Source: Alcaligenes faecalis (lineage in GTDB: Bacteria > Pseudomonadota > Gammaproteobacteria > Burkholderiales > Burkholderiaceae_B). Taken from it: a stretch of 64,000 nucleotides of DNA. Made by a program: the position numbers and the translations under genes. The stretch is from assembly GCF_002443155.1 (NCBI RefSeq), contig NZ_CP023667.1, positions 3,968,001-4,032,000 on the forward strand, in the 5' to 3' direction. Position 1 is the stretch's first letter; each line of letters opens with the position of its first letter. The notes beneath the pieces are model-generated. The model made no database searches. It was given only the letters and a program-made list of their open reading frames with translations, and had not been told where the DNA came from. This document shows positions 7,240 to 44,270 of the stretch, in pieces.

Positions 7240-10200
7240 TCAAGAAGCCTGGCGCTCCCATCCCAGGTGGTTATGTAACCACGTATCGTAAGCGTCCATG
7301 TCTACCCAACCCACCTGATTACCGGGTCGGATACGCCAGCTGTTATGCCGCTTGATCACTGTCTCCATGGATTGTTGAGTGGCTTGGCCCAGACGCGGGT
7401 GCAGGTCTTGATACATCAGGTTTTGACCCTGCCCGTGAGAGTCTACTCCCCGCAAACTGCCTTGAGTCAGTCGCAGCCCAGGCAGGCGCATGTCCAGCAA
7501 AACAGGGTGGAGCACGCTCAGGTCTATGTGCCCCAGTTCCGCCAGCGCCAGACCCGTCGCCCTGGCTTGCCAGTGCATCCAGGCCAGCGCCACCTTATCC
7601 AGATCGCTGATGGTTTCTTCGTTTTCATCAGGCAGCACGCCGCCGCCAATCTGGCTGTGCGCGCCGATAAAAGGCATTTCCACCGTGTTCATGGCCTCTG
7701 TCAGGGCGCTTAAGGGAAAGTAGGCACGGTGTTCATGCATGGCGACGGCATGCGCAACCCAGCTCCAGGCGTCGGACACGCCCAAGCGATATTGGGAGTT
7801 GCTGCCGCCTCCCAGTCCGAATTGGGCCACGGTATCGAACAGCCCTAAAAAGCGGGGCGTGATGCAGGCACGAATGGCGCCGCGCTGTGGATCATTCAAT
7901 ACAAACCAGCCCTGCTGTACGTGGTCCAGTATCCGATTGGAAAAGTCTCGTGCCAGTGCTGCTCCTCGAGAAAAACCCAGCAAATCCACAGGTACCGCGC
8001 TCGGGGCCGGGCCTTGCTCCTGCATGCGATTCAGGAAGTTGTTCCATTGCGATTCCAGAATCCGCCCTGCTCGCCAAGCGGTCAGTGCATCCCAGTTCAG
8101 GGTCACGGGATCGCCCGGCCCTTTGGCGTAATGCACCGCTCCATCCTGATACAACTGCGACAGTTTCCACACATTGCTATTGGTAATGGGAGCCTGTCGT
8201 GTGCCATCAAAGGCAAACAGGAGCAGGCCGGTGGGGTCAATATGACGCAAAGGCTGTTGTTGGGCGTAGCCCACGGCCTGGGTTTGTGGCCATGGCCCCA
8301 GAGGGTCCGGCTCTAGATAGTGGCCGTGCTCGGGCAGATAGGTACGCAGCAGATTGTCGTGCCAGCCGGTCGCGGATTCGGCATACTGCCCTGGTAGACG
8401 TAGATTGAACTCCAAGGTTTCAAGCAAGGGTTCGGCCTGTCCAAAAGGGTTCAGGTCGGCAGCCCAGACCGGCTTGGTTTGCTGGTCGCTAATCAGTCGC
8501 ACAGCGCCCATCAAATCACTATGCAGGTAGTACAACTGCCCTTGCCCGTCTGGCTGATAAACAATCATGCCTATTGGTGTCAGCCCGGCATACAGATAGC
8601 GTCGGGAGATGAGCTGGCCGGGACCAGCGGGTAAATCCAGTTCAGCTATTAATTGCTGGCCGTGAAAGAAAAAGGCTCGCTCCTGATCGCCTTGCTTGCG
8701 CCAGATACGTTGGCCAAAGGCATCGTGCCGGTACTCGACCAAGGTGGTGTGTGCTGTTTGCACACGCTGCAAGCGTCGGTTCGGACCGTAGTCCAGATTC
8801 AAGTTACCGACGGCTTTCGTCGTGCCGGTGGAGGAGCGCTGAATGGAAGCAGCTGGCTTTGGATGGCGTGCAACAAGTGCGCCGCTGTCGTTCCAGGCCA
8901 GCCACTGTGCTGATTCGGTCTTGCCCTGACGGAAAGCGATCAGCCGCTGTTTAGTGTCGTAGTGCAAAAACCAATGGCGTGTTTCTTGTAGCAGCGGGTA
9001 CTCATGGCGATCCTCCAGCACTTTGCCTTGAGCATCCAGACGGCGGGCTTGTGTCCAGACGGGTTTGCCATCGGGCTGCAAAAGCATCAAATCCACGGCC
9101 TGTCCGGCGCTGTTTGCATGGCTGATCAATTGAAGGCCATTGCCCCAGGCATAGCCCACCTCTTGTGCGTGAATCACGGTCTGGCGTTGCCCGGTTTGCG
9201 TGATCCATTCCAGAGACTGCAAGCGTCCGTGCGCGTCCCAGCGATAGCGTAGTTGTCCGCCCTCCGGCAGGGTGTGCTGCGTCAGCCTGCGTTGCTCGTC
9301 GTACTCAAAGCGCTCGGTCCAGCTTTGACCGGGGCTATGGCTACGTTCCAGACGGCGCTCTTGTAATAGGCCTGCCCGCAACTTCAACCATTGCGTTTCC
9401 ATGGGATGACGAATGCGCAGCGCACCAGGTCCAAGCCAGTCCAGTTCACTGCGCTCGGTTTCATGGCCTTGTTGATGTTCAAGACTGCTCAAACGCCCCC
9501 GTTGATCGTATCGAATGTGGAGCGAACCTCCTTCGGCGTATTCGAGGCGCCTCAGTTTGCCATTCGGGTTCCAGCGCCGTGTTTCGCCTCCATGCTGGCT
9601 TGTTGCCCAGTTTTGCAAGCGCCCTTTTTCATCCAGCTCGAAACGTAATGGCCCCCAGCCGCCCTGCCGTTGCTCCAGCCCAGAGAGTGTCCCATTGGCA
9701 CGGCGTTGCGCTGTCCATGGCCCGGCCTGCAACCAGCGCCCTTGCGGGTCGTACTGCCATTCCGTGCTTTGGACGGGGCAAGTGTCACATAGGCGGCTTT
9801 CCAGTTTTTGTAGCCGCTGCTGGCCTTGATAGTCTCGGTAGTGGAAGCGATGCCGCTCTGTGCCTATGGACCATTCGCTTAGGCCCGGCTCATAGCGTGC
9901 CGTCCAGTCCTGATTGAAGGCGTGGGAGATCAAACGGCTGACTCGGCCTTGGGCGTCGTACTCCCATTGCTGCATGGGCTGAGCCGTTTGCCCAGGCGCT
10001 TGCAGGCTGGTGCCACCTAAATGATGTGACCAAGGCGCAGGAGCTGGATGATAGAGGCGTTGCATGCCATCCGGACGGCTGACGCTGGCCAGCCAGATTT
10101 GCTGATCGTGCTGTTTCAGAAGCAAGCGAAACGGCCCGGCCGGGGTTTTAATATTGATGTCTGTGTCTGTGTCTGTGTCTGTGTCTGTGTCTGTGTCTGT

Positions 10201-11007
10201 GTCTGTGTCTGTCGGCGCGGTTGTGGTTGCCGCCGCTGTCGCTGCCTCTTCTGCTTCTGCAGCCCTTATCGCCGTTGTGGCATTGGCTAGGGATCTGGTT
10301 TTGGTTTGGGGTTGAACTTGTCTTGGAGTCTGAACTGGAGTTTGGTTTTGCCCTGGCCCATGTCCTTGTTTCTGCCCCTGTGGCGACACCTGCTCCTGCG
10401 CTTGGCTTTGCCAATCAAACACCAGCGTTTGGCCTAAATGATTGCGCACAGTTTTAACCGCATACGCCTGCGGATGCGTGCCCGGAAAGCGTTCTATATC
10501 CAGCCATTGCTGGGTCGAAACACGCACATGGGTCAACCAGCCCTGCTCGTCAAAACGCAGAATCAAACCATTCGGCCCCTGCCAGAACCAGCCCGTACCT
10601 TGCACCTGTGCCGGCGGGTACAAGCGAGTCTGCCGCCCATCCGGCATGAACAAGGCATGGCCTTGCTGCCGCAACTGCAGGTCGTAATTCAAGGCCCAGC
10701 CAGTGTGCCCAAGTGTTGGTGTAGGATTGCGCCCCTGCCCATTCCAGTGACGCTGCAATTGCAGCAAGGGCCAGGCCTGGCTTAGTGGCAGGTCCGTATC
10801 GCTTTGGTATTTCTGCCCGCTGAGCAAATCCACTGGATTGAGCAAACCCATATCTGGCGCGGGCTCGGCCTGTTCTCCCAAAGCGGCAGCTGGTGCGCAG
10901 CGGGTGGACGAGGGGGGCAAGGGGCACTCAAGCGAGCTTTGTGACCAGGCCAGGGACGGCAAGGTGATCAGGAGCAAGATTAGCCAGGACAGGAGCGCGG
11001 AAGGCAT
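7240..11007 (-). CDS. RHS-repeat protein with Sec signal and Tle1/DUF2235-like phospholipase C-terminus
   Basis: A 1255-residue protein. The N-terminus carries a Sec-type signal ([19 protein letters not shown], about 5-23). The RHS/YD-repeat shell fills about residues 60-900, with an insert of about nine Thr-Asp dipeptides. The RHS-associated core follows ([16 protein letters not shown], then PDPLGPWPQ and HIDPTGLL). From about 928 the C-terminal domain shows the DUF2235/Tle1 lipase pattern: FDGT, the nucleophile elbow GFSRGAA (Ser near 1013), [11 protein letters not shown] (Asp near 1058) and GAHSQIGGG (His near 1117). Tle1 enzymes are phospholipase effectors. No PAAR or VgrG part is seen and no immunity gene is recognised nearby. 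Toxic activity is inferred. Confidence 0.85.
10161..10212. repeat. Hexanucleotide tandem repeat (CTGTGT) inside the RHS gene
   Basis: Eight full copies of CTGTGT plus CTGT. On the coding strand they encode alternating Thr and Asp. The unit is a multiple of three, so slippage would change linker length without breaking the frame. The tract lies in a poorly conserved, Ala/Thr-rich insert of the RHS shell. Confidence 0.95.
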
Positions 11008-13613: not shown

Positions 13614-15314
13614 TTAAGCCGTTGTGGTTTCAGCTTCTTGCTGAGCGATGGTGTGGCGGTTGACCGCGCTCAAGATCGCCAGGAAGGAAGAAGTCACGAT
13701 GTCAGCGTGGATGCCCACACCAAAGCCCGATGGGCTGTCACCGATACGCATTTCCACGTAAGCGGCAGCGCGGGTTTCAGCACCGGAACCAATGGCGTGC
13801 TCGTTGTAGTCCATGATCTTGATGGACAGATCCAGGGCATTCACAAAGGCAGAGATCGCGCCTTCGCCCGAGCCCTTCAAGGTGCGAACCTGGCCGTCGT
13901 GCTCCACATCCACTTCAATCGTGAATTGCTGGCCGCTGTCGGCGTGAGGCTGGCTGATGATGTTGTGCTTGAGCAGCTTGTAGTGCTTTTTGCAGTTCAG
14001 GTACTCGGATTCGAAAATACCGTATACGTCTGCAGGCGTCACTTCCTTGCCGGAAGAATCGGTCACGCGCTGAATGGCGCGGCTGAATTCGATTTGCATG
14101 CGGCGTGGCAAGACCAGGCCGTGCTCTTGTTCCAGCAAGTAGGACACCCCGCCCTTGCCCGACTGGCTGTTGACGCGGATAACCGCATCGTAGCTGCGGC
14201 CCAGGTCGGCCGGGTCGATAGGCAAGTAAGGGACTTCCCACAGTTCGTCGGATTTTTGCTGAGCCAGGCCTTTCTTGATGGCGTCCTGGTGAGAGCCGGA
14301 GAAGGCGGTAAAGACCAGGTCGCCAGCGTAAGGGTGACGGGGATGCACGGGCAACTGGTTGCAGTACTCGGCGGTGCGACGCACTTCGTCGATGTCCGAG
14401 AAGTCCAGTTCAGGGTCCACGCCCTGGGTGTACAAGTTCAGGGCCAAAGTCACCAGGCAGACGTTGCCGGTGCGCTCGCCGCTACCGAACAAGCAGCCTT
14501 CGATACGGTCTGCGCCAGCCATCACAGCCAGTTCAGCAGCCGCTACCGCAGTGCCACGGTCGTTGTGCGGGTGCACGCTCAGGGTTACGTTGCTGCGCTG
14601 TTCCAGATTGTTGTGCATCCACTCGATCTGGTCGGCGTACATATTGGGCGTGGTGGCCTCAATGGTCGCGGGCAAGTTCAGGATGACGCGCTCGTCGGCG
14701 GCAGGTGCCCAGGCTTTCACCACCGCGTTACACACGTCCAGCGCAAATTCCGGCTCGGTGGTGCTGAATACTTCGGGCGAATACTCGTAGCCCCATTGGG
14801 TTTGCGGGTACTTGGCCACTTCGTTCTTGACCAGGCGTGTACCGGTCAGGGCAATTTCCTTGATCTCGTCCTTGCTCAAGTTAAAGACAATCTTGCGAAA
14901 GGCCGGTGCACATGCGTTGTACAGGTGAATGATGGCGCGCTTGGCACCGGCAGCAGCTTCGGCCGTGCGCTTGATCAGGTCTTCACGCGACTGCGTCAGG
15001 ACGATGATGGTGACGTCTTCAGGAATGCGGTTTTCGTCGATCAGCTTGCGAACGAAATCGAAGTCGGTCTGCGATGCGGAAGGGAAACCGACCTCGATTT
15101 CCTTGAAACCGATTTTGACGAGTTGCTCGAAAAAGCGCAGTTTGCGAGCCACGTTCATGGGCTCGATCAGGGACTGGTTGCCGTCACGCAAGTCTGTGCT
15201 CATCCAGATGGGCGCTTTGGTAATGCGCTTGGAAGGCCAGGTGCGTTCAGCGAAGTCGCGATCAAAGGCGACAAAAGGACGATACTTTTGAGAGGGGTTT
15301 TTCAGCATTGCCAT
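13614..15314 (-). CDS. leuA: 2-isopropylmalate synthase
   Basis: A 566-residue enzyme that condenses acetyl-CoA with 2-oxoisovalerate, the first committed step of leucine synthesis. The catalytic TIM barrel carries the DRDGNQSL-type motif ([14 protein letters not shown], about 39-52), the metal-binding HPHNDRG and the [12 protein letters not shown] signature. A C-terminal LeuA allosteric domain (about 430-566, [11 protein letters not shown], ending in an Ala-rich tail) provides leucine feedback inhibition. The length and N-terminus ([12 protein letters not shown]) fit the long LeuA subgroup. It is preceded by a leader peptide with a Leu-codon run (15447-15599), so expression is probably controlled by leucine supply. 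Confidence 0.95.
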
Positions 15315-20449: not shown

Positions 20450-21088
20450 TTAGCTAAATAACCAGGGTTCCTGTTTCCTGCGTTGTTGCTCGTAAGCCTG
20501 GATCTGATCCATTTTCTGCTCTGTCACGCTGATGTCGTCCAGCGCCAGCAGCAGGCGGTGGCGGCGTTCAGGCTCCACCTGGAAATGGATGTGCTGGTCG
20601 GGACCGATCAACATGCAGGCTTCCAGATCGACCGTCCATTCATCCCACGGATTTTGCGCGGCAGTGGTGAATAAGCCATCAATCTGTTCCGCAGCCAGCT
20701 GTATCGGCAACATGCCGTTTTTAAAGCAGTTATTGCGGAAAATGTCAGCAAAAGAAGGGGCGATCAGCACCGCAATGCCTAAGTCCTTCAGCGCCCAGAC
20801 CGCGTGTTCACGGCTGGACCCGCAGCCAAAATTCTCGCGTCCCAGCAGAATGCGGGCGCCTTGTGCATGCGGCTGATGCAGGCAGAAACTGTGGATTGGC
20901 TCACGCTCGGCCAGTGGCTTGCCGGGGTAGCCAATATCCGCGTACCGCCAGTTGTCGAAGGCATATTGCCCAAAGCCGGTGCGTGACAAGGAAGTCATGT
21001 ACTGCTTGGGCAAGATCGCGTCGGTATCCACATTGGCGCGGTCCAGCGCAATCAGGCGCGAGCGCACGGAAGTAAAAGGTGTGTTCAT
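20450..21088 (-). CDS. leuD: LeuD-type hydro-lyase small subunit (isopropylmalate isomerase family)
   Basis: A 212-residue aconitase-family swivel domain protein. It starts [29 protein letters not shown] with the family's substrate-loop DTDAILP. It carries [18 protein letters not shown] near residues 79-96 and the [20 protein letters not shown] segment. Such subunits pair with LeuC to dehydrate and rehydrate 2-isopropylmalate, and the LeuCD pair is also known to act on citraconate. Its ATG overlaps the leuC stop (ATGA), so the two are translationally coupled. The operon lacks leuA and leuB and carries a CoA-transferase and a lyase instead, so a catabolic hydratase role is as likely as leucine synthesis. 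Confidence 0.85.
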
Positions 21089-22497
21089 GCAGCGTCCCAG
21101 TGGCGGATATCGACAAGATGGCCTGCAATTGCGGCGGCAGCCGCCATGGCGGGGCTCATCAGGTGTGTGCGTCCCAAGGCGCCCTGCCTGCCTTCAAAAT
21201 TGCGGTTGGAGGTGGAGGCGCAGCGCTCGCCCGGATTCAGGCGGTCTTCGTTCATGCCCAGGCACATGGAGCAGCCCGGCTCGCGCCATTCAAAACCGGC
21301 TTGCGTGAAAATCTGGTCCAAGCCTTCCTGCTCGGCCTGACGACGTACCAGACCCGAGCCGGGGACGACTAGGGCCTGCAGTACCGTGCTGGCCACACGT
21401 TTGCCTTTGACCATGGCTGCGGCGCTGCGCAGGTCCTCAATGCGGGCGTTGGTACAGGAGCCAATAAATACCCGGTCTATGGTGATGCCTGCCAGCGGCT
21501 GGCCGGCCTGCAAAGCCATATAGTTCAAGGCGCGTTGGGCGTCAGCTTGTTTGGCCGTGGCGGCCGCTAATGGATCAGGCACAAGCTGGTCGATGGCCGC
21601 CGCCATATCGGGGGAGGTTCCCCAGGTAACCGTGGGGGCGACCTGCGTGGCGTCGATCTGCAAGTGTTGATCGTATTGGCAGCCCTCATCGCTGATCAGC
21701 GTGCGCCAGTACTGCTCTGCCTTGTCCCAGGCCTCTCCTTTCGGTGCCAAGGGGCGACCGCGCACATAGTCCAGGGTCTTGTCGTCCACAGAGACCAGAG
21801 CAATACGGGCCCCCGCTTCGATCGCCATATTGCACAAGGTCATGCGCCCTTCCATGGATAAGGCACGGATGGCGGGGCCGGTAAATTCGATGGCACAGTC
21901 CCGTCCGCCATCCGCGCCCAGGCGGGCAATGATGTGCAGGATCAGGTCCTTGGCGGTGCTGGTGGCTGGTAATTCGCCTTGTACATCTACTTGCAGGCTG
22001 CGCATGCGTTTCGCGGCCAGACATTGCGTGGCCAGAACATGTTCCACCTCGGAGGTGCCAATGCCAAAGGCCAGGGCCGCAAACGCGCCATGCGTGCTGG
22101 TATGGGAATCTCCCGCCACGATGCTGGAACCGGGCAAGGTCATGCCCTGTTCCGGTCCGATCACGTGGATGATGCCCTGGCGCTCGTCATCCAGCCCAAA
22201 ATAGCGCAGGCCAAACTCCCGGCTATTGATCTCCATCTGGTCGATCTGCGCCTGGGCCAAAGGATCTTCCAGACGCTGATTGCGGCGGCGAGTGGGCACG
22301 TTGTGGTCCACCGTGGTCAGCGCGGTTTCCGGACGACGCACATGGCGTCCAGCCAGACGCAAACTTTCGAAAGCTTGCGGACTGGTGACTTCGTACAACA
22401 ACTGGCGGTCTATGTAGATCAGATCATGCTCATCGTCTACCGCCGCGACGCGATGTGTATCCCAGAGCTTTTGAAAAAGGGTGCGGGCCGTGCTCAT
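21085..22497 (-). CDS. leuC: LeuC-type hydro-lyase large subunit, [4Fe-4S]
   Basis: A 470-residue aconitase-family large subunit of typical LeuC length. The [4Fe-4S] ligands are visible as C348 ([13 protein letters not shown]) and C409/C412 ([13 protein letters not shown]). Substrate and cluster motifs include VDHNVPTR and [25 protein letters not shown]. The start is the ATG at 22497, overlapping the lyase stop as ATGA; a GTG three codons upstream is less likely. Its reaction is the reversible hydration/dehydration of a 2- or 3-substituted malate. Context (amidase, TRAP importer, CoA-transferase, HMG-CoA-lyase-like enzyme) suggests an assimilated dicarboxylate such as citraconate/citramalate or a maleate derivative as substrate. 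This is an inference. Confidence 0.85.
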
Positions 22498-23399
22498 GGT
22501 TGGCACACCTTCAAGGCGTAGGCTGGCCCGGCTTTGTGCAGGCGACTTTGAATAGGCTCTTGCGTCAGGGCCGCGATTTCTTCAGCCAAAGGCTGGAGCG
22601 CTTCCAGATTCAAGCCTGTTTCCACGCCGCTGATCTGGAACATATGGGCCAGATCTTCCAGGCTGGCATTGCCGCTGGCACCGGGGGCGTAAGGGCAGCC
22701 GCCCAAACCGGCCAGCGCTGCGTCGAACCGACGCCCGCCTTCGCGATACGCAGCCCAGGCATTGGCCAGCGCCAGCCCGCGGGTGTCATGGAAATGGCCA
22801 GTGACGCCCTGCTCGCCATACAAACTCAAGGCAGCCTGGGTCAGGCGTTCTACATCCACGGGCGAACCCATGCCGGTGGTATCGCACAGGCTGACGGAGC
22901 TGGCTCCCATGCGCTGCACTTCTTGCATCAAGGCAATCACGTGTGCGGGGGCGACGGCGCCGGTAAAGGGGCAACCAAACGCGGTGGACAGAGACACGTT
23001 CACTGGCGTTTTGCCCGCCGCTTCCAGCACCTGCTCCAGCTGGGCCAGTGATTGTGCAATATTCATGCGCAGATTGGCCTGGTTATGCGCTTCAGAGGCT
23101 GAAAATACAAAGTTCAGCTCGTTCATATGGGCTGCCAAAGCGCGCTGCGCACCGCGCAGATTGGGGACCAGTGCGGTGTAGCAAACCTGAGGGTCGCGTG
23201 TGGTCAGGCTGGCCAGCTCATCGGCATCCGCCAGGGATGGGATGGCTTTGGGCGACGTAAAGGACGTGAGCTCGATCTTGCGCACGCCGCATTGAGGCAG
23301 CGCCTGCGCGATACGCAGCTTGTCTGGCGTAGGCACCCAGCGTGGCACGATTTGCAGGCCGTCACGCAAGGTGACGTCGGTGATCAATACGGTACTCAT
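22494..23399 (-). CDS. HMG-CoA lyase-like enzyme (HMGL TIM-barrel family)
   Basis: A 301-residue TIM-barrel lyase. The metal/substrate motif [10 protein letters not shown] is at residues 6-15. The metal-binding [13 protein letters not shown] and the C-terminal catalytic-loop signature [14 protein letters not shown], containing the HMG-CoA lyase Cys, are both intact. Family members cleave 3-hydroxy-3-methylglutaryl-CoA to acetoacetate and acetyl-CoA, and relatives act on citramalyl-CoA-like 3-hydroxy-3-methylacyl-CoA esters. ATGA overlaps on both sides (with the CoA-transferase upstream and leuC downstream) show one tightly coupled unit. A citramalyl-CoA-type lyase fits the neighbours; leucine catabolism is the alternative. 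Confidence 0.85.
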
Positions 23400-24607
23400 T
23401 CCACGATTCCTTGTTCGCGCAGGGCTTGGCAGCGCTCCGGGCTCATGCCCAGTTCTTGCAGGATGCTGTCTGTGTGTTCGCCCAACTCCGGCCCCAACCA
23501 TTGGGTGGCACCAGGGCTGCGGCTTAACTTGGGCACGATGCCGGGTATGGTCAGTTCCTGGCCGTCTTCCAGTGTGTGTTTCTCCAGCATGCCGCGCGCC
23601 TGATAGTGCGGGTCATCCAGAATGTCGGCGGCGGTGTAGATGCTGCCGCTGGGGACTTCGGCCTTGTCCAATGCTGTCAGCACGTCTTCCAGGCTCCGCG
23701 CGCCGGTCCAGTCGCCAATGGTCTGGTCCAGCATGGCGCTGTGTTCCACGCGTCCGGCGTTGTCGGACAGGCGCGGATCGTTGGCCAGATCGGGCCGGCT
23801 CATGGCCTGCATCAGACGAATGAAAATGGCATCGCTATTAGCCGCAATCACCACCCATTTGCCGTCGCCGGTGGGATAGGTGTTGGAAGGGGCGATACCG
23901 GGCAAGCTGGCGCCAGTGCGTTCACGTTGATGACCGTTCAGTTGATAGTCCGGAATCAGGCTTTCCATGATGGCGAAGACAGATTCGTACAGGGCCACAT
24001 CAATCATTTGGCCCTGTCCGCCTTCCTGGCGTAGATGATGCATGGCCAGCAGCGCGCCTATGGTGCCGTACAGCGAAGCCAGCGTATCGCCCAGGCTGAC
24101 ACCGGCTCGTACAGGAGGGCGATCCGGATAGCCGGTGCCGTAACGCAGGCCACCCATACATTCCGCGATGGCCGCAAAGCCGGGGCGACGGTGATAGGGG
24201 CCGTCCTGCCCGTAGCCGGAGACGCGCACCATGATCAGGCGCGGGTTCAGGGCGTGCAGCGTTTCCCAGCCCAGGCCCCAGCGTTCCAGCACGCCGGGGC
24301 GGAAATTTTCAATGACGATATCGCTTTGCAGGGCCAGCTCACGAGCAATTTCCTGGCCATCGGGCTGGCGCAGATCCAGCGCAATGGAGCGCTTGTTGCG
24401 GCTTTGCACGCGCCACCACAGGGAAGTGTCCTTGTGCAGCTGCCGCCAGCGGCGCAGCGGGTCGCCCTTGCCGGGCGGTTCGATCTTGATGACATCGGCC
24501 CCAAATTGAGCCAGCAGGCTACCGGCATAGGGGCCGGCAATCAGTGATCCCAGCTCCAGGACTTTGATGCCTTTGAGCGGGGGGGCGGTAAAGCTGTTCT
24601 TATCCAT
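23396..24607 (-). CDS. CaiB/BaiF-family (class III) CoA-transferase
   Basis: A 403-residue family III CoA-transferase, which moves CoA between acyl groups through an aspartyl-CoA thioester. The N-terminal KGIKVLELGSLIAGPYAG, the ADVIKIEPPGKGDPLR loop and the probable catalytic Asp in SLGDTLASLYG (about D174) are present. Length and domain layout match formyl-CoA and succinyl-CoA:dicarboxylate transferases. It is the first gene of the fourfold overlapping unit with the lyase and LeuCD genes. A terminator separates it from dctM upstream. The likely role is CoA activation of the imported or hydrated dicarboxylate; donor and acceptor are unknown. Confidence 0.88.
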   Translation of the reverse strand: MDKNSFTAPPLKGIKVLELGSLIAGPYAGSLLAQFGADVIKIEPPGKGDPLRRWRQLHKDTSLWWRVQSRNKRSIALDLRQPDGQEIARELALQSDIVIENFRPGVLERWGLGWETLHALNPRLIMVRVSGYGQDGPYHRRPGFAAIAECMGGLRYGTGYPDRPPVRAGVSLGDTLASLYGTIGALLAMHHLRQEGGQGQMIDVALYESVFAIMESLIPDYQLNGHQRERTGASLPGIAPSNTYPTGDGKWVVIAANSDAIFIRLMQAMSRPDLANDPRLSDNAGRVEHSAMLDQTIGDWTGARSLEDVLTALDKAEVPSGSIYTAADILDDPHYQARGMLEKHTLEDGQELTIPGIVPKLSRSPGATQWLGPELGEHTDSILQELGMSPERCQALREQGIVE

Positions 24608-24708
24608 TTCTGTTTCCTCCAGCTATGGATTCTGGAATAGAAAAAGGAAGTGGAAAAGCAATCAAATATTATGCTGCCATCGTAAAAAACGTGGGTGGAA
24701 AATAAATA

Positions 24709-24731
24709 AAAACCCGCATGAAGCGGGTTTT
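24709..24731 (-). terminator. Terminator between dctM and the CoA-transferase gene
   Basis: On the minus strand AAAACCCGC-TTCAT-GCGGGTTTT is followed by TATTTATTT. It lies right after the dctM stop, inside the catabolic island. It implies that the CoA-transferase unit has its own promoter or depends on read-through. Confidence 0.8.
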
Positions 24732-24736
24732 GTTTT

Positions 24737-26035
24737 TTAAAGCGTTCGGGGTAGCCAAAGAATAATTTCGGGGAAGATGGTCAAAATGACAATTGCCAAA
24801 ATCTCCAATGCTACAAATGGCAGAGCCCCCCGTGTAATCTGCTGTAGCGATATTTGCGGAGCAATACCCTTGATCACATAGAGATTCAATCCCACCGGCG
24901 GTGTAATTACGGCCATTTCGCAGGCAATAATCATCACAATGCCAAACCATAATGGATCGTAGCCCAGTGCGACAATGACTGGCAGTAAAACGGGAGTCGT
25001 GATCAGGATAAGGGAAACAATATCCAGGAACATGCCCACGACAATCAGAAACAGCAGCACGAACAGAAGAATGACCCAGGCTGGCTGAGACGATGCCGTA
25101 ATCAGGGCCACCAGCTTTTGCGGAATCATCAAGCGGGTCATGATGTAGCCAAACAGCAGCGCTGCGGCCAGAATCAGCAAGATCATGCCACTGGTGACGG
25201 CGGTGGAGCGCAGAATCTGCAAGGCCGTGCGCCAGTTCATTTCCTTGTAGGCAATGGCAATGAGGAACGCACCTGCAGCACCAATACCGGCAGCTTCTGT
25301 TGGAGTAGCAATGCCCAGATAGATCGTGCCCAGCACCAGCAAAATCAGCAAGGAAGCGGCCCAGATGTCTTTCAGGGCGGCCAATTTCTGTGCCCAGGTA
25401 ACGACTTCCGAATTGCGTGGTGCGGACTCTGGCTTGAATATCGCAACCAGGGCCACATAAATCACCATCATGACGGTAACCATCAGGGCGGGCAGCAAGG
25501 CACCTATAAACAGCTTGCCGATGGACTGATCCGCCATTTCGCCATACAGCACAAAGCCAATGCTGGGAGGAATCAGCAGGGCCAAAGCACCGGCCGCGGC
25601 AATCGTGCCGCCAGACAGACTGGGCGAGTAGCCGCGCTTGAGCATTTCAGGAATGGCAAAGCGACCAATCGTGGCGGCACCCGCTACGCTGACGCCGCTC
25701 ATGGCACCGAAAACGGCCGAGCTGCCTACACTGGCCACAGCCAAACCACCGGGCAGGCGGTTCAACCATAAATAGAACAGCTGATAGAGCTTGCCGCCAA
25801 TACTGGTGCGGGCAATGACTTCACCCATCAGAATGAACAGCGGGATGGCGATCAGGGAATAGCTGGCCATGCCGCGGTGCAAGGTGGCGGGAATGACATC
25901 CAGGCCGCCCAGGCCGGATTTCATCAGAATGCCGGAAATACTGGCAACACCCAGTGCGGCAAAAATGGGGGTACCGATAACCATCAGGATGGCAAAGCAG
26001 GCCATCATCAGGCTGAAAATGAGCATGGAATCCAT
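24737..26035 (-). CDS. dctM: TRAP transporter large membrane subunit DctM (system 1)
   Basis: A 432-residue inner-membrane protein with about 12-13 hydrophobic helices, the transport channel of a tripartite ATP-independent periplasmic carrier driven by sodium or proton gradients. Recognisable parts are IGTPIFAALGVASI, FILMGEVIARTSIGGKLYQL, the SGVSVAGAATIGRFAIPEMLKRGYS loop and the ITPPVGLNLYVIKGIA segment near the C-terminus. The start is the ATG at 26035, one base after the dctQ stop, with AAGGAG upstream within dctQ. It works with the DctQ and DctP genes upstream. Confidence 0.93.
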   Translation of the reverse strand: MDSMLIFSLMMACFAILMVIGTPIFAALGVASISGILMKSGLGGLDVIPATLHRGMASYSLIAIPLFILMGEVIARTSIGGKLYQLFYLWLNRLPGGLAVASVGSSAVFGAMSGVSVAGAATIGRFAIPEMLKRGYSPSLSGGTIAAAGALALLIPPSIGFVLYGEMADQSIGKLFIGALLPALMVTVMMVIYVALVAIFKPESAPRNSEVVTWAQKLAALKDIWAASLLILLVLGTIYLGIATPTEAAGIGAAGAFLIAIAYKEMNWRTALQILRSTAVTSGMILLILAAALLFGYIMTRLMIPQKLVALITASSQPAWVILLFVLLFLIVVGMFLDIVSLILITTPVLLPVIVALGYDPLWFGIVMIIACEMAVITPPVGLNLYVIKGIAPQISLQQITRGALPFVALEILAIVILTIFPEIILWLPRTL

Positions 26036-26036
26036 G

Positions 26037-26555
26037 TCAGAACTCCTTGATGCTGTCGTTGGATTCCACACTGTTCGGGATGAACAGTTGGCGCAGGGTA
26101 GCCAGGCCCAGCAAGGTGCCGCCCAGCGGGATCATGCCGTAGGCAATCCACAAGGGGAAACGCAGCATGGAAGCCGAGCGATAGTTGCGGGCAAGCGCGG
26201 TTTCCACCACGGAAATACCGGCCCACAACAGCACCAGGCAAAAGAACAAGATGCACAGTTGCGAATTGCAGGTGGCCAGGCGCTGGCCGCGTGGCGAGAA
26301 GCGCATATGGAATGCTTCCACGCTGACGTGGCGATTTTCCAGGTGGACCCAGCCTATGGACAGCCAGGAGCAGACCAGCAGCAAGTACACACACACTTCG
26401 GTGATGTAGATGCTGGGGCTGTTAAAGACGTAGCGTGCAATGACGCCGTAGGTGCAGGCAATCATCAGGGCGGCCAGGGCAACTTCGGCTACCAGAATGG
26501 CAACACGGTTACTGCCGCGCGCAAATGCGCCCAGAAAATGAATAAGTGGATTCAT
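26037..26555 (-). CDS. dctQ: TRAP transporter small membrane subunit DctQ (system 1)
   Basis: A 172-residue DctQ-type protein with four predicted transmembrane helices (about 19-38, 50-68, 90-110 and 130-150). The family segment WLSIGWVHLENRHVSVEAF precedes the third helix. It joins DctM in the membrane complex that takes substrate from DctP. The ATG at 26555 follows GGAGACACC; the longer in-frame start at 26603 lacks a suitable ribosome-binding site. It is coupled to dctM by a 1-nt gap. Confidence 0.9.
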   Translation of the reverse strand: MNPLIHFLGAFARGSNRVAILVAEVALAALMIACTYGVIARYVFNSPSIYITEVCVYLLLVCSWLSIGWVHLENRHVSVEAFHMRFSPRGQRLATCNSQLCILFFCLVLLWAGISVVETALARNYRSASMLRFPLWIAYGMIPLGGTLLGLATLRQLFIPNSVESNDSIKEF

Positions 26556-26613
26556 GGTGTCTCCACACGAGGGATACACGCCGGCTCGGGGGCCGGCGCG
26601 CATTCACGCGTGA

Positions 26614-27615
26614 TCAGGGCTGGCGGGTTTTTTCGATCAGTTCCAGATAGGCGGGACCGTTCTCAACCTGCTTGCTCCATTCATCAATGGCGGCTTGGGT
26701 TTGCTGACGCATTTCGGCCAGTTGAGCGGGTTCAACACGATTGATGGTCACACCGGCTTGCTCGTAGCGTTGCAGCGCCTGGCCTACAAAGGCGTTCACG
26801 CGTTCAAACTGTTCTTCGTCGCGCTGGTGGGCGGCCTTGCTGATGATCTCTTGCAGATCGGGTGGCAGGGATTCCCATTTCTTGCGGTTGATGGTCAGCA
26901 CGGATACATCGATACCGAAGTTGGCGATGGACAGGTACTTGGCCACTTCATACAGGTTGCGGCCAATGCCGGTCAGCAAGGGACGTGGAGTGGCGTCGAT
27001 CACGCCACGGTCAAAGGCCAGGTACAGCTCGGAAGAGGGCATGCCGGTTGGTGAGCCACCCAGCAGTTGCAGGGCGCGCGCATCCATGGAACTGGTGGAG
27101 GCCCAGACCTTGCCCTTGATGTCAGCGGCCGAGTTGATCGGTGCCTTGCGGCTGTAGAACTCGTACGGGTCCCAAGGCGCCAGGCCCAGCACAACGGCAT
27201 CGTGCGTGTCACGCAGTTCCTGTTCGGCCCCCAACTTGAACAGTCCCTGGTCCAGAGCACGTTTCAGGTGAGCCGTGCTGTCAAACAGAAATGGCAGGGT
27301 AAAGATGTTCAGCGCCGGCACGGTACCGCTAGGGTAGGTGCTCGTCATGTTGACGATGTCCACGTCACCACGGGACAGGGCTGGCAGTTCCTCGTAGCCG
27401 TCAAACAGCTGGCCAGAGTGGAAGACATTGATCTTGATACGGCCCTGGCTTTCTTTTTCTACGGTCTGGACGAAGTTCTCAATGGGTTTCCAGGCGTATT
27501 CGTAAGCCGGTGGCAAGTAGGTTGAAAAGGTCAGCTCGACTTCTTGGGCGTGCGCAGGCGAGATGCCCAGCGCCAGGGTGCAGGCGGTCAGCGCCGCTGT
27601 CAGGGCTTTTTTCAT
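26614..27615 (-). CDS. dctP: TRAP transporter periplasmic solute-binding protein DctP (system 1)
   Basis: A 333-residue DctP/TAXI-type binding protein with a cleavable signal peptide (1-23, ending SPAHAQ). Family segments are LTFSTYLPPAYEYAWKPIENF at the mature N-terminus, the carboxylate-binding neighbourhood KVWASTSSMDARALQLLGGSP and LAFDRGVIDATPRP. The usual carboxylate-binding Arg of the GxKxR motif is replaced here by KGKVWAS, so the ligand contact may differ from that of classical C4-dicarboxylate binders. It follows the amidase gene by 34 nt and is probably co-transcribed with it. Confidence 0.92.
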   Translation of the reverse strand: MKKALTAALTACTLALGISPAHAQEVELTFSTYLPPAYEYAWKPIENFVQTVEKESQGRIKINVFHSGQLFDGYEELPALSRGDVDIVNMTSTYPSGTVPALNIFTLPFLFDSTAHLKRALDQGLFKLGAEQELRDTHDAVVLGLAPWDPYEFYSRKAPINSAADIKGKVWASTSSMDARALQLLGGSPTGMPSSELYLAFDRGVIDATPRPLLTGIGRNLYEVAKYLSIANFGIDVSVLTINRKKWESLPPDLQEIISKAAHQRDEEQFERVNAFVGQALQRYEQAGVTINRVEPAQLAEMRQQTQAAIDEWSKQVENGPAYLELIEKTRQP

Positions 27616-27649
27616 GGATGTCTCCTGTGGTTTCTTTTTTTGTGTGCTG

Positions 27650-28270
27650 TTAAAGCGTGTGTAGATGAGCGATCAAGTCGGCCGAGGGCAGGACTTCGCC
27701 GTACTTGCTGGCCATATCGATCAGATTGCTGCGGTGTTGGGCTGCCGAGCGGTCAGCCACCGCATCTTTAGCCACGAACGGGGCAAATCCCGACTGCAGG
27801 CTGTCCACCACGCTGGCACGGACGCAGCCGCTGGTGGTGGCGCCGGCCACAATCAGCATGTCGCAGCCTTGATGGGCCAGCAAGGCAGGCAGTGGCGTGC
27901 CGTAAAAGGCAGACGCCTGGGTCTTGTACAGGATGATGTCTTGTTCAGAATCGTAGTCCAGCCGTGGGTCCAGCTCGCAGGCAGACGAACCGCGCAGCAG
28001 GCAGCGCAAGGACGAGGCCTTGGTCAGCCACAGATTGGCATCGGCCAGATGAGCCTCGTAGCCGATGATGGTGAAAATAACGCGACCCTTGCCACGCATG
28101 GCGCGGATCAAGGCATTGGTTTGTTCGATCTGGCTGTCGCAGTTCGAGGCCAGCGGTGTCAAACCTGGTTCGGTAAAGCCACGTTGAAAGTCGATAACGA
28201 CCAAAGCCGGCTGTTGCCCCATGGGCAGGGTGCCGTCAAACCCCCCTTTCAGATTATCGCTATCGCGCAT
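27650..28270 (-). CDS. Isochorismatase-fold cysteine hydrolase (amidase-like)
   Basis: A 206-residue isochorismatase-superfamily enzyme with the full Asp-Lys-Cys triad: D27 (VVIDFQRGF), K116 (ILYKTQASAF) and C149 (ATTSGCVRAS). The cis-peptide GATTSGC segment before the Cys is typical of N-carbamoylsarcosine amidases and maleamate amidases; isochorismatases lack the Cys. The likely reaction is hydrolysis of an amide to a carboxylate and ammonia. It is the first gene of the minus-strand catabolic island, divergent from a LysR regulator, and leads into the TRAP genes. A maleamate- or citraconamate-like substrate would suit the LeuCD-type hydratase downstream. This is inference. Confidence 0.82.
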   Translation of the reverse strand: MRDSDNLKGGFDGTLPMGQQPALVVIDFQRGFTEPGLTPLASNCDSQIEQTNALIRAMRGKGRVIFTIIGYEAHLADANLWLTKASSLRCLLRGSSACELDPRLDYDSEQDIILYKTQASAFYGTPLPALLAHQGCDMLIVAGATTSGCVRASVVDSLQSGFAPFVAKDAVADRSAAQHRSNLIDMASKYGEVLPSADLIAHLHTL

Positions 28271-28363
28271 TTGTTCTCCCCTTGCTATTTTTCCTGACTT
28301 AAATAATCAGGTTCCGTATTATTTGCGTAGTCTGTCATCGCTAATGACGTGAGTACAGCGTCA

Positions 28364-28387
28364 AATTGCGATGGTGCTATCGCAATT
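28364..28387. promoter_or_regulatory. Inverted repeat with T-N11-A, probable LysR operator
   Basis: AATTGCGAT-GGTGCT-ATCGCAATT is a perfect 9-bp inverted repeat containing T-N11-A (28367-28379). It lies in the 170-nt gap between the divergent amidase and LysR genes, the usual place for a LysR-type recognition site. Confidence 0.6.
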
Positions 28388-28440
28388 GATGATGGCAGAG
28401 TGCTTGTCGACCCGCCTCTCCTAGGATGGAATACTGGCTT

Positions 28441-29325
28441 ATGAACATCGATCCCAAATCTTTGCGGCTATTTTTGTTGGTGCTGGAACGCGGCACCATC
28501 TCGGGGGCGGCCGAGCAGTTTCACATTGCGCCTGCGGCAGTCAGCAAGCGCCTTAGCGATCTGGAACAGCAATTGGGCGCAGCCCTGATCGAGCGCAGCA
28601 ATAAAGGTGTGTATCCAACGGCAGCAGGCAAATCGCTGGCTGCCATGGCTCAGCGTTTGCTCGATGATATGGACGCCATGGGTGCCTTGATGCGCGACTT
28701 CGCCGGAGGGGCGACCGGCAATGTGCGGATAGCGGCGAACCTGTCGTCCATCACGCAGTTTTTACCGCAGGCCTTAAGTTCTTTTATGGCGCGTCATCCC
28801 AAAGTGCGCGTGTCGCTGGAAGAGCGGATCAGCGCCGGAGTGGCTCAGGCGGTGGCTGACAATAATGCTGATCTGGGTGTGCTGATCCGAGGCGTAGGCA
28901 GTGCCGAGGTGGAGTATTACGACTATCGTCAGGACGAGCTGGTTCTGCTGGTGCCTGCGTATCACCCTTTGGCGGGACGGAAGGAACTGCCCTTTGCCGA
29001 TACCCTGGATTTTGACTATGTGGGCATGCACACCGGCAGTCACCCCAATCTTTTGTTGTTACGTGCCGCCAGCGAGCTGGAACGTACCTGGCGTTGCCGT
29101 GTGCAGGTTACCAGCTACGACGCTCAATGCCGCATGATTGAAGCGGGCCTGGGAATTGGTGTGCTGCCGCGCTCTGTGGCCCAGTCCTATGTGCAAAGCC
29201 TGGGCCTGGCGATGTGTGTGATCAAGGAGCCCTGGACATCGCGTCGCGTGGCGCTGTGTGTGCGCAGCCGCTATAGCTTGTCGCCCGCCGCCCGCCTGTT
29301 GATGGACCACCTGTTGCAAAATTGA
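28441..29325 (+). CDS. LysR-family transcriptional regulator of the catabolic island
   Basis: A 294-residue LysR-type regulator. The N-terminal winged HTH is SLRLFLLVLERGTISGAAEQ, then APAAVSKRLSDLEQQLGAAL (about 6-48), followed by the linker helix. A periplasmic-binding-protein-like effector domain occupies about 90-290. It starts divergently from the amidase-TRAP-CoA-transferase genes with a palindromic T-N11-A site between them, so it most likely controls that island in response to its substrate. An in-frame ATG at 28426 is possible; 28441 fits the family start better. Confidence 0.88.
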   Translation: MNIDPKSLRLFLLVLERGTISGAAEQFHIAPAAVSKRLSDLEQQLGAALIERSNKGVYPTAAGKSLAAMAQRLLDDMDAMGALMRDFAGGATGNVRIAANLSSITQFLPQALSSFMARHPKVRVSLEERISAGVAQAVADNNADLGVLIRGVGSAEVEYYDYRQDELVLLVPAYHPLAGRKELPFADTLDFDYVGMHTGSHPNLLLLRAASELERTWRCRVQVTSYDAQCRMIEAGLGIGVLPRSVAQSYVQSLGLAMCVIKEPWTSRRVALCVRSRYSLSPAARLLMDHLLQN

Positions 29326-41617: not shown

Positions 41618-43186
41618 CTAGCCCAGCAAGGCGGGTTTGCGTTTTTGCACCCACTGCGTGGCCTGCTCATACGCGTAGGACAGTTGCAGCACCGCCATAT
41701 CGGCCTGGGCAGGACCCATGATCTGCAAGCCCATGGGCAGCCCGGCCGCATTAAAGCCTGCCGGCACGTTCATAACGGGCAGGCCTGCCAGGGAGCCGCC
41801 AATGACGATTTCCATCCAGCGGTGGTAGGTGTCCATTTTGCGCCCGGCGATTTCGCCAGGCCAGTGAGTGGTGCCCGCAAAGGGGAAAACCTGGGCGGTG
41901 GGCAGCACCAGATAGTCGTAGGTCTGGAACAGCTTGCGCAGGGCTTCGTACCATTTGCTGCGATTGATGGAGGCCTGGTAGACCTGGGCACCGCTCAGGT
42001 TCAGCCCGCCAGCCACTTCCCAGATGGCTTCGGGCTTCATCTTTTCGCGTAGCTCGGGTTTGGCGTACAGGCCCTGTGCGCTTCCGGCGACGGTGAAGTG
42101 GCGCAGTGTCAGCCAGGTTTGCCACAGCTGTTCCATGGAATAGTCGGGCTGGGCCGCTTCGACGGTGCAGCCTATGGTCTCAAAGCTCTTCAAGGCGCTT
42201 TGGCACAGGTCCATGATGCCGGCTTCCATAGGCAGGTAACCGTTGTAGTCGCCCAGCCAGCCGATGCGGGTCCCCTTGAAGTCGCGTTGCAGTTTGCCGG
42301 CGAATTGTTGTGGGTCCTGGCTGATGCTAAGCGGGCTGCGGGCATCGAATCCGGCCTGGGTGGACAGCAGCATGGCCAGGTCGGACACGGTACGGCCCAT
42401 GGGGCCTTCGTAGCCCATTTGCTGAAAGAACACTTCAGAGGTCGGGCCATAGGGCACGCGGCCTTGGGAGGGGCGAAAGCCGTAGACGTTGTTGAAAGCA
42501 CCGGGGTTGCGCAGGGAGCCCATCATGTCGCTACCGTCAGCCACGGGCAGCATGCGGGTAGCCAGGGCGACGGCGGCCCCGCCGCTGCTGCCGCCAGCAC
42601 ACAGATCGGGCTGGTAAGCGTTGCCGGTAGTGCCAAAAACGGCGTTGTAGGTGTGCGATCCCAGGCCAAATTCCGGGGTATTGGTTTTACCGATCAGAAT
42701 GGCGCCAGATTGCCGCACCCGTTCCACAACGATGGCGTCTTGTTTGGGCAGATAGTCCTTGAAAATCGGCGAGCCGCTGGTGGTGACGATATCGACCGTT
42801 GCCGCCAGATCTTTTGGGGCTTGAGGCATACCGTGCATCCAGCCCATGTACTGGCCCGCCTTCAGTTGCTGATCGCGCTTGTCTGCCTGGGCCAGCAATC
42901 CGCTGCGCTCTTGCAGGGAGACGATGGCGTTGACCTTGGGGTTCACACGGTCGATATGGTCCAGATAGGCCACCATCACTTCGTGGCAGGAGACCTGGCG
43001 TTGGGCAATCCAGCCCGACAGAGTCAGCGCATCAGCCATGATGATGTCCTGGGCCGTGCCCGGACCGGGGGCCGTTTTCGCAAAGGCCTGGCGTCCCAAG
43101 GAAGGGGCCATGCCCGCCAGCGATAGCAGTCCGGTGGTTTTCAAAAAGCGGCGGCGCGCGTCCAGGGGTGCCGAGGTATCGGTCAT
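41618..43186 (-). CDS. Tat-exported amidase-signature enzyme
   Basis: A 522-residue amidase-signature hydrolase. The N-terminus has a twin-arginine signal (ARRRFLKTTGLLSLAG, about 10-25), so folded export to the periplasm is likely. The Ser-cisSer-Lys triad region is visible: the Lys precedes in DLAATVDIVTTSG (K-equivalent in PKDLAA), and the signature GGSSGGAAVALATRMLPVADGSD holds both serines. GKTNTPEFGLGSHTYNAVFG is also typical. Substrate unknown. The ATG at 43186 follows GGGAGACAAAC. It is divergent from a LysR gene with a palindromic site between, which likely controls it. Confidence 0.88.
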   Translation of the reverse strand: MTDTSAPLDARRRFLKTTGLLSLAGMAPSLGRQAFAKTAPGPGTAQDIIMADALTLSGWIAQRQVSCHEVMVAYLDHIDRVNPKVNAIVSLQERSGLLAQADKRDQQLKAGQYMGWMHGMPQAPKDLAATVDIVTTSGSPIFKDYLPKQDAIVVERVRQSGAILIGKTNTPEFGLGSHTYNAVFGTTGNAYQPDLCAGGSSGGAAVALATRMLPVADGSDMMGSLRNPGAFNNVYGFRPSQGRVPYGPTSEVFFQQMGYEGPMGRTVSDLAMLLSTQAGFDARSPLSISQDPQQFAGKLQRDFKGTRIGWLGDYNGYLPMEAGIMDLCQSALKSFETIGCTVEAAQPDYSMEQLWQTWLTLRHFTVAGSAQGLYAKPELREKMKPEAIWEVAGGLNLSGAQVYQASINRSKWYEALRKLFQTYDYLVLPTAQVFPFAGTTHWPGEIAGRKMDTYHRWMEIVIGGSLAGLPVMNVPAGFNAAGLPMGLQIMGPAQADMAVLQLSYAYEQATQWVQKRKPALLG

Positions 43187-43281
43187 GTTTGTCTCCCGTT
43201 TTTTTGTAAGGCCATCCAAGTGGCTAGGCCATTCTATGCAGGTACAATGCGCGGCTCAAACGCCAAAAAATCATCAAGTTG

Positions 43282-43296
43282 ATGCGGTCTGTGCAT
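43282..43296. promoter_or_regulatory. Possible LysR site between amidase and LysR genes
   Basis: ATGCGGTCTGTGCAT is a short inverted repeat (ATGC/GCAT) with T-N11-A spacing (43283-43295), 33 nt upstream of the LysR start. Confidence 0.4.
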
Positions 43297-43328
43297 AAGC
43301 CGGTTCAAGCGTCAGCAAGGGGACAAGC

Positions 43329-44225
43329 ATGGACTTTCGCAAGCTGCGGCACTTTGTGGCCGTTTGCGAACACGGTACCTTTCATCGGGCCGCGCAAGCC
43401 GTCCATTTAAGCCAGTCCGCCTTGAGCCGTAGCATCCAGGCTCTGGAGCAGGAACTGGGCGTGCCGCTGTTCGATCGCAGCAGTCAGCGCATTTTTTTGA
43501 CGCCTTATGGTCGGGTTCTGCTGGAGCGTGCCCACCGGGTGTTGCAGGAAGGCCGTGCCTTGCAGCGCGAGCTGGCCCTGCTTCAGGGCGAAGACGCAGG
43601 CAGCCTGCGCTTAGGGTTAAGCTCTACCCCCGCAGCGGTCTTGCTGCATCCGTGCATGGTGGCGCTGCTGGACGAATATCCGCGCTTGCGCGTGGACGCC
43701 GTGATTGGCCGCACGCTGGAGCTGATCCAGGGCCTGCGCCGCGAACGCTACGATATGGTGGTGCTGGACGTCAGCGCGGTGACTGACGTGCGTGGTCTGG
43801 ATATTGAGTATCTGCCCGCCATGCAAGGCGATATGCTGGTTCGTCAGGGCCACCCGCTCTTGCAGCAGGAGTCGCTGGATTTTGCGGCGATCAGCCAGTA
43901 TCCCGTGGCCTGCTCCGTGATCAGTGATGATTTGACCGACCGCCTGATTGCCGAGTTTGGTGCGCAAGGTCATCCCGACAGCTTTGTACGCTTTTGTTGT
44001 GATAGCTTCAGCATTCAGCGCGACGTGGTGCTGGACAGCGATATGGTCTTGATGAGTGTGCTGGCGGCAGTACGGCGCGATATTGAGGCCGGTGATCTGG
44101 TGCCGCTGGGCCTTTTTTCTTCGTCCTTGTCCGGGCACTATGCCCTGGTGCGCTTGTCGGGCCGCACGCAATTGCCGGCTCTGGATATTGTTTACGATCT
44201 GGCGCGTCGCCTGTGCAGGGCCTAG
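43329..44225 (+). CDS. LysR-family regulator, divergent from the amidase gene
   Basis: A 298-residue LysR-type regulator. HTH: MDFRKLRHFVAVCEHGTFHRAAQ, then LSQSALSRSIQALEQELG (about 1-48). A linker helix and an effector-binding domain follow (about 90-295). The N-terminus (FRKLRHFVAV) fits the large BenM/CatM-like subgroup. Position and the T-N11-A site suggest control of the amidase gene. The effector is unknown. Confidence 0.88.
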   Translation: MDFRKLRHFVAVCEHGTFHRAAQAVHLSQSALSRSIQALEQELGVPLFDRSSQRIFLTPYGRVLLERAHRVLQEGRALQRELALLQGEDAGSLRLGLSSTPAAVLLHPCMVALLDEYPRLRVDAVIGRTLELIQGLRRERYDMVVLDVSAVTDVRGLDIEYLPAMQGDMLVRQGHPLLQQESLDFAAISQYPVACSVISDDLTDRLIAEFGAQGHPDSFVRFCCDSFSIQRDVVLDSDMVLMSVLAAVRRDIEAGDLVPLGLFSSSLSGHYALVRLSGRTQLPALDIVYDLARRLCRA

Positions 44226-44270
44226 GCTGCACGCTACGCTTTCTGATCTGCCTTGTTTGAGGGTGTGCCG

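Follow-up and report, generated by a model that had tools for sequence, protein, structure and literature searches.

A conserved Alcaligenes gene cluster joining a LeuCD paralogue to a CoA-transferase, a lyase, and an amidase–TRAP module, with a possible role in citraconate catabolism

Between positions 20450 and 29325 of a 64,000-nucleotide stretch of the Alcaligenes faecalis genome (G000:C1:3,968,001-4,032,000, in a genome of 4.08 Mb; the window hereafter is this whole stretch), nine genes constitute a real, conserved catabolic cluster composed of known parts in a new combination. Eight of them occupy the minus strand and run from 28270 down to 20450. They begin with an isochorismatase-fold amidohydrolase (Iso, 27650..28270; PF00857), whose nearest entries are N-carbamoylsarcosine amidohydrolase and its relatives, and continue with the three components of a TRAP transporter, namely, the solute-binding protein DctP (26614..27615; PF03480), the small permease DctQ (26037..26603; PF04290), and the large permease DctM (24737..26035; PF06808, and TIGR00786 above its cut-off). 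Downstream lie a family III CoA-transferase (CoAT, 23396..24607; PF02515, 421 bits), an enzyme resembling 3-hydroxy-3-methylglutaryl-CoA (HMG-CoA) lyase (HMGL-like, 22494..23399; PF00682 and PRK05692) which we propose to be an (R)-citramalyl-CoA lyase, and paralogues of LeuC (21085..22497; TIGR00170) and LeuD (20450..21088; TIGR00171), the large and small subunits of a proposed citraconate hydratase. The ninth gene, encoding a LysR-type regulator (28441..29325; PF00126 and PF03466), is divergent and lies on the plus strand. Profile searches with Pfam and NCBIfam place each of the nine in its expected family, which, together with the open reading frames (ORFs), bears out the gene content, order, strands, and divergent regulator described in the first-pass annotation. 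Several of the names used below for neighbourhood genes come from similarity to a reference protein or were assigned by eye.

The enzyme genes are coupled by ATGA overlaps at 23399, 22497, and 21088, which join CoAT to the lyase, the lyase to LeuC, and LeuC to LeuD, and no leuB adjoins the leuCD pair; both features had been seen in the first pass and stand. The refined starts are ATG 23399 for the lyase (the listed ORF start, 23501, falls within the CoAT gene), ATG 22497 for LeuC, and ATG 26035 for DctM, immediately past the dctQ stop; for LysR, an alternative start is offered by an upstream ATG at 28426. The dctM–CoAT gap, 129 bases long, contains a terminator-like hairpin of nine pairs followed by a T-rich tail (24709..24731, read from 24731 to 24709 on the minus strand), and this hairpin is kept in all seven genus genomes compared, its own included. 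Eight loci had been entered in that comparison and in the one for the inverted repeat described next, but L080 and L013 proved to be one and the same, hence seven genomes. In the gap between Iso and LysR, a perfect inverted repeat (28364..28387; AATTGCGAT-N6-ATCGCAATT) represents a candidate LysR site. The 64 kb holds four further repeats of the 9-bp-N6 form, and the pattern is seen in four of the seven genus genomes (own included), so that its status as such is suggestive only. The regulator itself probably senses a pathway intermediate.

The cluster LeuCD is a paralogue and not the sole leucine-pathway copy, because a canonical leuC-leuD-leuB-asd locus sits elsewhere in the genome, 2 Mb off (G000:C1:1,958,000-1,970,000), with all four products above NCBIfam cut-offs. 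The first-pass annotation had named a second leuCDB as support for a catabolic role and a sole leuCD as grounds against one, and it is the former that the genome holds. Between the two copies, LeuC is 62% and LeuD 48% identical; on TIGR00170 the cluster LeuC scores 712 bits and the canonical one 799 (cut-off 560), and on TIGR00171 the corresponding LeuD scores are 207 and 257 (cut-off 116). A short LeuD motif follows genomic context, reading TDA[IL] in all 17 context-linked rows (13 distinct loci) and TD[LQ]I in all 13 other rows, L115, L155, and L157 included. After nine near-copies were dropped from the 30 rows, a tree of 21 LeuC sequences separated the context-linked LeuCs from the rest by a branch whose support was 70/77, found in 68% of bootstrap trees, and the LeuD tree gave a like split (51/72; 50%). 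For this comparison L067, which lies near a monooxygenase-like gene, was put in the context group even though the CoAT-HMGL pair of its genome is on another contig, and L115, L155, and L157, which stand beside a CoAT without a lyase, were put in the other. In these last three loci, LeuC (48-50% identical) and LeuD (36-38%) lie directly upstream of a family III CoAT with no HMGL match in the stretch, and L115 and L155 also carry a fumarylacetoacetase-family gene beside LeuCD-CoAT.

The family III CoAT and the HMGL-like lyase, side by side and ATGA-overlapped, have the composition of the module designated EC 2.8.3.20 plus EC 4.1.3.46 (names and numbers as in an excerpt of PMC8307300). The nearest NCBIfam entry to the CoAT is succinate-glutarate CoA-transferase, and its residue D174 is invariant in eight of eight aligned rows. 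A second family III CoAT, 56% identical to that of the cluster, is encoded elsewhere in the genome (L161, G000:C1:1358709-1359884), with no lyase in the stretch and, by eye, a transposase-like ORF and a trigger-factor-like ORF at its flanks. The lyase scores 296 bits on the PRK05692 subfamily (cut-off 246) and is not the best HMG-CoA lyase of the genome; a paralogue at C1:4066393 fits the model far better, at 481. Its residues R12, D13, E43, H202, H204, C235, and N244, which we take to be catalytic by comparison with human HMG-CoA lyase, are invariant in nine of nine aligned rows, and its nearest solved relative (6nds, 282 bits vs 211 for the next) is a structure with CoA and 3-methylmalate. 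An excerpt of PMC6689899 equates the (S)-citramalyl moiety with the R configuration of HMG-CoA and has TIM-barrel lyases use (S)-HMG-CoA. By the same rule, TIM-barrel HMGL-type lyases would match (R)-citramalyl-CoA, and we infer that the cluster lyase fits the (R) branch for this reason. LeuCD, for its part, yields (R)-citramalate in the isoleucine pathway.

The cluster is conserved within its genus to a degree beyond chance. Close copies of the lyase (at least 94% identical), LeuC (at least 93%), and DctP (at least 94%) occur in seven of ten genus genomes, own included; the same three genomes are without close copies of any of them and have one LeuC, and the seven carriers are the ones in which a further LeuC matches at E 1e-150 or better. 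In Alcaligenes pakistanensis (G059, L080), the nine cluster proteins are 92-97% identical. Among 20 lyase neighbourhoods picked by hand, and thus not at random, from the lyase matches, CoAT stands beside the lyase in 19, L046 being the exception; in L054 the lyase was at first masked by a longer ORF and then recognised.

The enzyme half also recurs in gentisate-linked settings. CoAT-HMGL together with LeuCD was found at a minimum of 12 loci in 11 genomes from four genera of the family and, in addition to these, in Xenophilus azovorans. Outside Alcaligenes, these comprise five loci in three other family genera (G122 twice, G143, G204, and G205) and the Xenophilus locus, and five of these six have a gentisate 1,2-dioxygenase above cut-off no more than 6 kb away, whereas an MFS transporter takes its place in the sixth (G143, L045). 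A fumarylacetoacetase-type (FAH-type) hydrolase is also present in L193, L194, and L081. One strand of L193 carries an FAH-type hydrolase, HMGL, LeuC, LeuD, and CoAT, and then another hydrolase, a protein of the maleylacetoacetate-isomerase type (264 bits, cut-off 171), and a 3-hydroxybenzoate 6-monooxygenase (705 bits, cut-off 459). On the far side there are a related monooxygenase that, at 402, stays under its cut-off, and a gentisate dioxygenase that scores 517 (cut-off 442). We read this locus as two parallel gentisate routes, one dependent on the isomerase and the other proceeding by direct hydrolysis and ending in LeuCD-CoAT-HMGL. Direct hydrolysis of methylmaleylpyruvate gives citraconate, and Hopper and Chapman are said to have found in 1971 that the ring-cleavage product of methylgentisate can be hydrolysed directly to citraconate and pyruvate; a second, isomerase-free route would thus be expected for methylgentisates. 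The Xenophilus locus consists of a hydrolase, a dioxygenase, an ABC transporter, and CoAT-HMGL-LeuC-LeuD, and no isomerase-type match was found in its 21 kb, in keeping with a cis-diacid being formed by direct hydrolysis.

The amidase–transport half has its own distinguishing features. The best solved relatives of Iso are 26st, 4l07, 4l08, and 3ot4/3uao (E 1e-39 to 4e-34), titled N-carbamoylsarcosine amidohydrolase or isochorismatase-family hydrolase, of which we take 4l07/4l08 and 3ot4/3uao to be maleamate amidases. The Cys of the motif GATTSGCVRAS is conserved (it is Ala in the 4l08 sequence), and this catalytic motif and the close relation place Iso, by sequence, with the maleamate/N-carbamoylsarcosine amidohydrolases. 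In DctP, W171 faces the ligand Arg of solved relatives in four of five printed alignments, and the fifth (4ngu, ungapped) sets that Arg opposite A172. In these alignments the conserved ligand Arg of canonical TRAP binding proteins, presumably R147 of SiaP, is not at its position in DctP; across 11 aligned DctPs, that of the window included, the W171 column holds nine W and no R, and R211 in TPRPL is invariant (11/11). The window may contain a further amide/TRAP pairing, in that a PF01425 amidase lies within 41618-49477 with a second DctP and DctM 3-6 kb off.

Taken together, these elements suggest a route. The DctPQM transporter would import an acid or its amide, and the isochorismatase-fold amidase would free a cis-diacid from the half-amide. 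The LeuCD paralogue would hydrate citraconate to (R)-citramalate, the CoAT would form (R)-citramalyl-CoA, probably from succinyl-CoA, and the HMGL-like enzyme would split this ester into acetyl-CoA and pyruvate. The need for CoA-dependent cleavage would be explained by the nature of citramalate, a tertiary alcohol which is not directly oxidisable. The general scheme, in which a cis-diacid is freed, hydrated, provided with CoA, and cleaved, we consider likely. Whether the substrate is a 2-alkylmaleate with its half-amide, most likely citraconate handled via (R)-citramalate, is in our estimate an evenly balanced question. The fullest version is tentative and falls short of an even prospect. It holds that these are the genes of an (R) branch in which citraconate and (R)-citramalate are broken down into acetyl-CoA and pyruvate, a stereochemical mirror of the (S) branch of itaconate and methylsuccinate, entered in Alcaligenes through an arginine-shifted DctP and an alkylmaleamate amidase, with LeuCD-CoAT-HMGL finishing methylgentisate degradation in other Burkholderiales. 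Reactions, substrate, and regulation are predictions that build on the observed gene content, paralogy, conservation, gentisate-linked recurrence, and amidase–TRAP pairing. The order of hydration, CoA transfer, and cleavage in a catabolic context, put forward in the first-pass annotation, still appears the natural reading, each activity being predicted. The pathway, left unnamed there, can now be called the (R)-citramalate branch, its single enzyme activities being already in the literature, and its dicarboxylate has been narrowed by the gentisate-linked relatives to the class of citraconate and maleate, with the specific acid and amide a matter of prediction.

A number of observations weigh against this interpretation. 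The substrate assignment is borrowed from relatives that share about 65% identity in LeuC and 47-52% in the lyase. Neither a gentisate dioxygenase nor an acylpyruvate hydrolase is among the nine cluster proteins (Pfam), the window is without the gentisate genes, and the only TIGR02272 match of the genome, at 316 bits, is below the cut-off of 442. Iso and the CoAT reach no NCBIfam cut-off (56 vs 195 and 288 vs 750, respectively), the lyase passes just one NCBIfam model, that for the HMG-CoA lyase subfamily, and the 3-isopropylmalate dehydratase models are indeed passed by both LeuC and LeuD; the clade of context-linked LeuCs, and likewise that of the LeuDs, is weakly supported. Furthermore, the CoAT-HMGL pair is commoner without LeuCD, gentisate loci included. 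Among the best 80 CoAT loci of 594 stretches in the scan of named genomes, a selection whose counts are not frequencies, 51 have the lyase, five have LeuCD, and two (L080 and L081) have both. At three loci near gentisate genes (L040, L044, and L053), the stretch holds CoAT-HMGL and no LeuCD. A gentisate dioxygenase above cut-off is present in L040 and L044, and an isomerase-type protein above cut-off in L044 and L053; the genome of L044 does encode a TDA-type LeuCD on another contig (L195), beside a monooxygenase-like gene. In L193 and L194, moreover, the isomerase or the second gentisate set is contiguous and on the same strand, and the division into two sets is interpretive. Our confidence is lowered by how few of the 80 CoAT loci combine the lyase with LeuCD, and by the isomerase-type genes that accompany CoAT-HMGL in L044 and L053.

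The unity of the cluster is likewise in question, and its halves occur apart more often than together. A single operon, as implied by the transcription order given in the first pass, is doubtful because the conserved hairpin separates the two halves, and enzyme and amidase–transport genes may form two units and not one transcript. DctP orthologues 57-68% identical were found at eight loci in seven genomes outside the genus, and Iso adjoins the TRAP genes in all eight. CoAT-HMGL is near only one of them, in Pusillimonas (L041). A 650-residue aconitase-type protein stands in the Iso-TRAP gene row at four of the eight, and at one, 3.3 kb away on the other strand, there is a LeuC/LeuD pair of a different type (47% and 39%); of the remaining three, the G132 contig ends early, and G207 and G230 are without a hydratase in the stretch fetched. 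The recurring theme would then be an amidase, a TRAP transporter, and an aconitase-superfamily hydratase, with LeuCD one solution among others. Iso-TRAP is an independently conserved module, and its union with the enzyme half in Alcaligenes may be secondary. The earlier idea of amide entry and a LeuCD route as one cluster holds for the adjacency of the genes here, while elsewhere Iso-TRAP is more often found with a different hydratase. The aconitase-type protein is encoded at L041:16330-18294 (PRK07229, 825 bits, cut-off 612) and in L185, L186, and L187, and a relative (65%) occurs in the CoAT-HMGL locus L095 of Methylobacterium dankookense. In another Iso-DctPQM locus, a ketopantoate-reductase-family gene (L188:7666-8634, G224) overlaps the start of the amidase gene.

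Other substrates must also be weighed. The acid could be maleate, with Iso acting on maleamate, LeuCD forming D-malate, and CoAT and lyase yielding acetyl-CoA and glyoxylate, an outcome that the resemblance of Iso to presumed maleamate amidases would suit. An excerpt of PMC8307300 reports maleate hydratase activity for the leuC product of M. jannaschii, and gives EC 2.8.3.20 a name that covers (R)-malate as well as (R)-citramalate. D-malate, however, would have no need of CoA-dependent cleavage, and a TIGR02089 tartrate/D-malate-dehydrogenase-type gene is present above cut-off elsewhere in the genome. Malyl-CoA lyases, too, are presumably of the CitE family and not HMGL-like, and we regard maleate as an unlikely substrate. 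Larger alkylmaleates (ethylmethyl-, dimethyl-, or isopropylmaleate, such as might derive, as maleimides, from oxidised tetrapyrroles) would be converted to an acyl-CoA and a 2-oxoacid, which in the case of 3-isopropylmalate would equal isopropylmalate synthesis in reverse. The 3-isopropylmalate dehydratase scores of LeuC and LeuD are in keeping with such acids, and the LeuCD family presumably includes dimethylmaleate hydratase; a DctP without the usual ligand Arg may bind something other than a simple diacid, and the amidase would suit a half-amide from an opened imide. Given that no imidase-type protein is among the nine cluster proteins (Pfam), and that the relatives adjoin gentisate genes, as fits maleate or citraconate, the case for these acids is a poor one.

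It is rather improbable that CoAT and lyase serve an imported 3-hydroxy-3-methylglutarate or other hydroxydiacid, with LeuCD an accessory or passenger. The NCBIfam placements of the two enzymes point that way, as do the 49 of 51 CoAT-HMGL loci among the best 80 that are without LeuCD, and in Pseudomonas helleri (L136) a dicarboxylate-symporter-family gene lies 1.4 kb beyond the pair; the ATGA overlap of LeuC with the lyase, and the company that LeuCD keeps with the pair in other genera, argue otherwise. A hydratase whose substrate is a tricarboxylate like cis-aconitate, or an amide of it, together with a lyase that splits citryl-CoA-like esters into oxaloacetate and acetyl-CoA, would accord with the aconitase-type protein that follows Iso-TRAP in half of the loci outside the genus. 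The Alcaligenes hydratase, however, is LeuCD and not that protein, and citrate in an aerobe requires no such route, which leaves this possibility very slight. That LeuCD is a spare leucine-synthesis enzyme in an accidental neighbourhood is hardly credible, since its scores above the dehydratase cut-offs and a leuA that starts 5 kb off on the same strand (805 bits, cut-off 697) are set against a canonical leuCDB with higher scores, a neighbourhood kept in seven of ten genus genomes with analogous ones in four other genera, and the rpoN-like and TonB-receptor genes that separate leuA from the cluster.

This leuA (window 13614-15314; TIGR00970) has a second copy in the genome at C1:1486070, 55% identical to it, and the rpoN-like gene was recognised by eye. 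Farther from the cluster, 7240-11007 of the window encodes an RHS-repeat protein of 1255 residues in which residues 1044-1145 make up a Tle1-like phospholipase domain.

If the citraconate/(R)-citramalate assignment is true, genes would be in hand for that half of C5-diacid metabolism which runs through (R)-citramalate and lies outside the published itaconate cluster, and for the likely end of direct-hydrolysis methylgentisate degradation. Some enzymes that carry the annotation 3-isopropylmalate dehydratase or HMG-CoA lyase might then be catabolic, with other substrates. A literature search covering titles, abstract openings, and few subscription papers yielded no report of a cluster of LeuCD, CoA-transferase, and HMGL. 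An excerpt of PMC9875883 describes citraconate as an antibacterial and immunomodulatory compound.

Among known systems, the itaconate/methylsuccinate cluster ict-ich-ccl of pseudomonads, as described in excerpts of PMC12290011 and PMC9875883, likewise transfers CoA to a C5 diacid, cleaves citramalyl-CoA to acetyl-CoA and pyruvate, and has a TRAP transporter nearby (PA0884-0886), whereas it runs via (S)-citramalyl-CoA. In the same excerpts the C. necator CoA-transferase is given a value of <1 with (R)-citramalate, and, in that of PMC9875883, PA0878-PA0883 did not enable P. putida to use (R)-citramalate or citraconate. Neither the itaconyl-CoA hydratase of that cluster nor a CitE-family lyase is among the nine cluster proteins, in a Pfam and NCBIfam search that covered the cluster and not the rest of the genome. 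With the canonical leuCDB dehydratase, the Alcaligenes pair shares two subunits above the NCBIfam cut-offs, and differs from it in having no adjacent leuB, lower scores, and the TDA signature in LeuD. Iso resembles the maleamate/N-carbamoylsarcosine amidohydrolases in sequence and in the conserved Cys motif; its substrate is predicted from sequence, and its operon, unlike theirs, includes a TRAP transporter. The (R)-citramalate module of Chloroflexus, whose enzymes we take to be a family III CoA-transferase and an HMGL-family lyase, is likened to the cluster pair by family and not by sequence comparison, and the cluster adds LeuCD, TRAP, and amidase to it. Finally, the direct-hydrolysis branch of gentisate degradation uses a LeuCD-type maleate hydratase, HbzIJ, and so parallels the cluster in placing such a hydratase on a maleate-type acid, just as the relatives of the module lie near gentisate dioxygenases; the Alcaligenes cluster, in contrast, is without gentisate genes, adds a CoAT and a lyase, and would be entered by way of an amide and a TRAP transporter.

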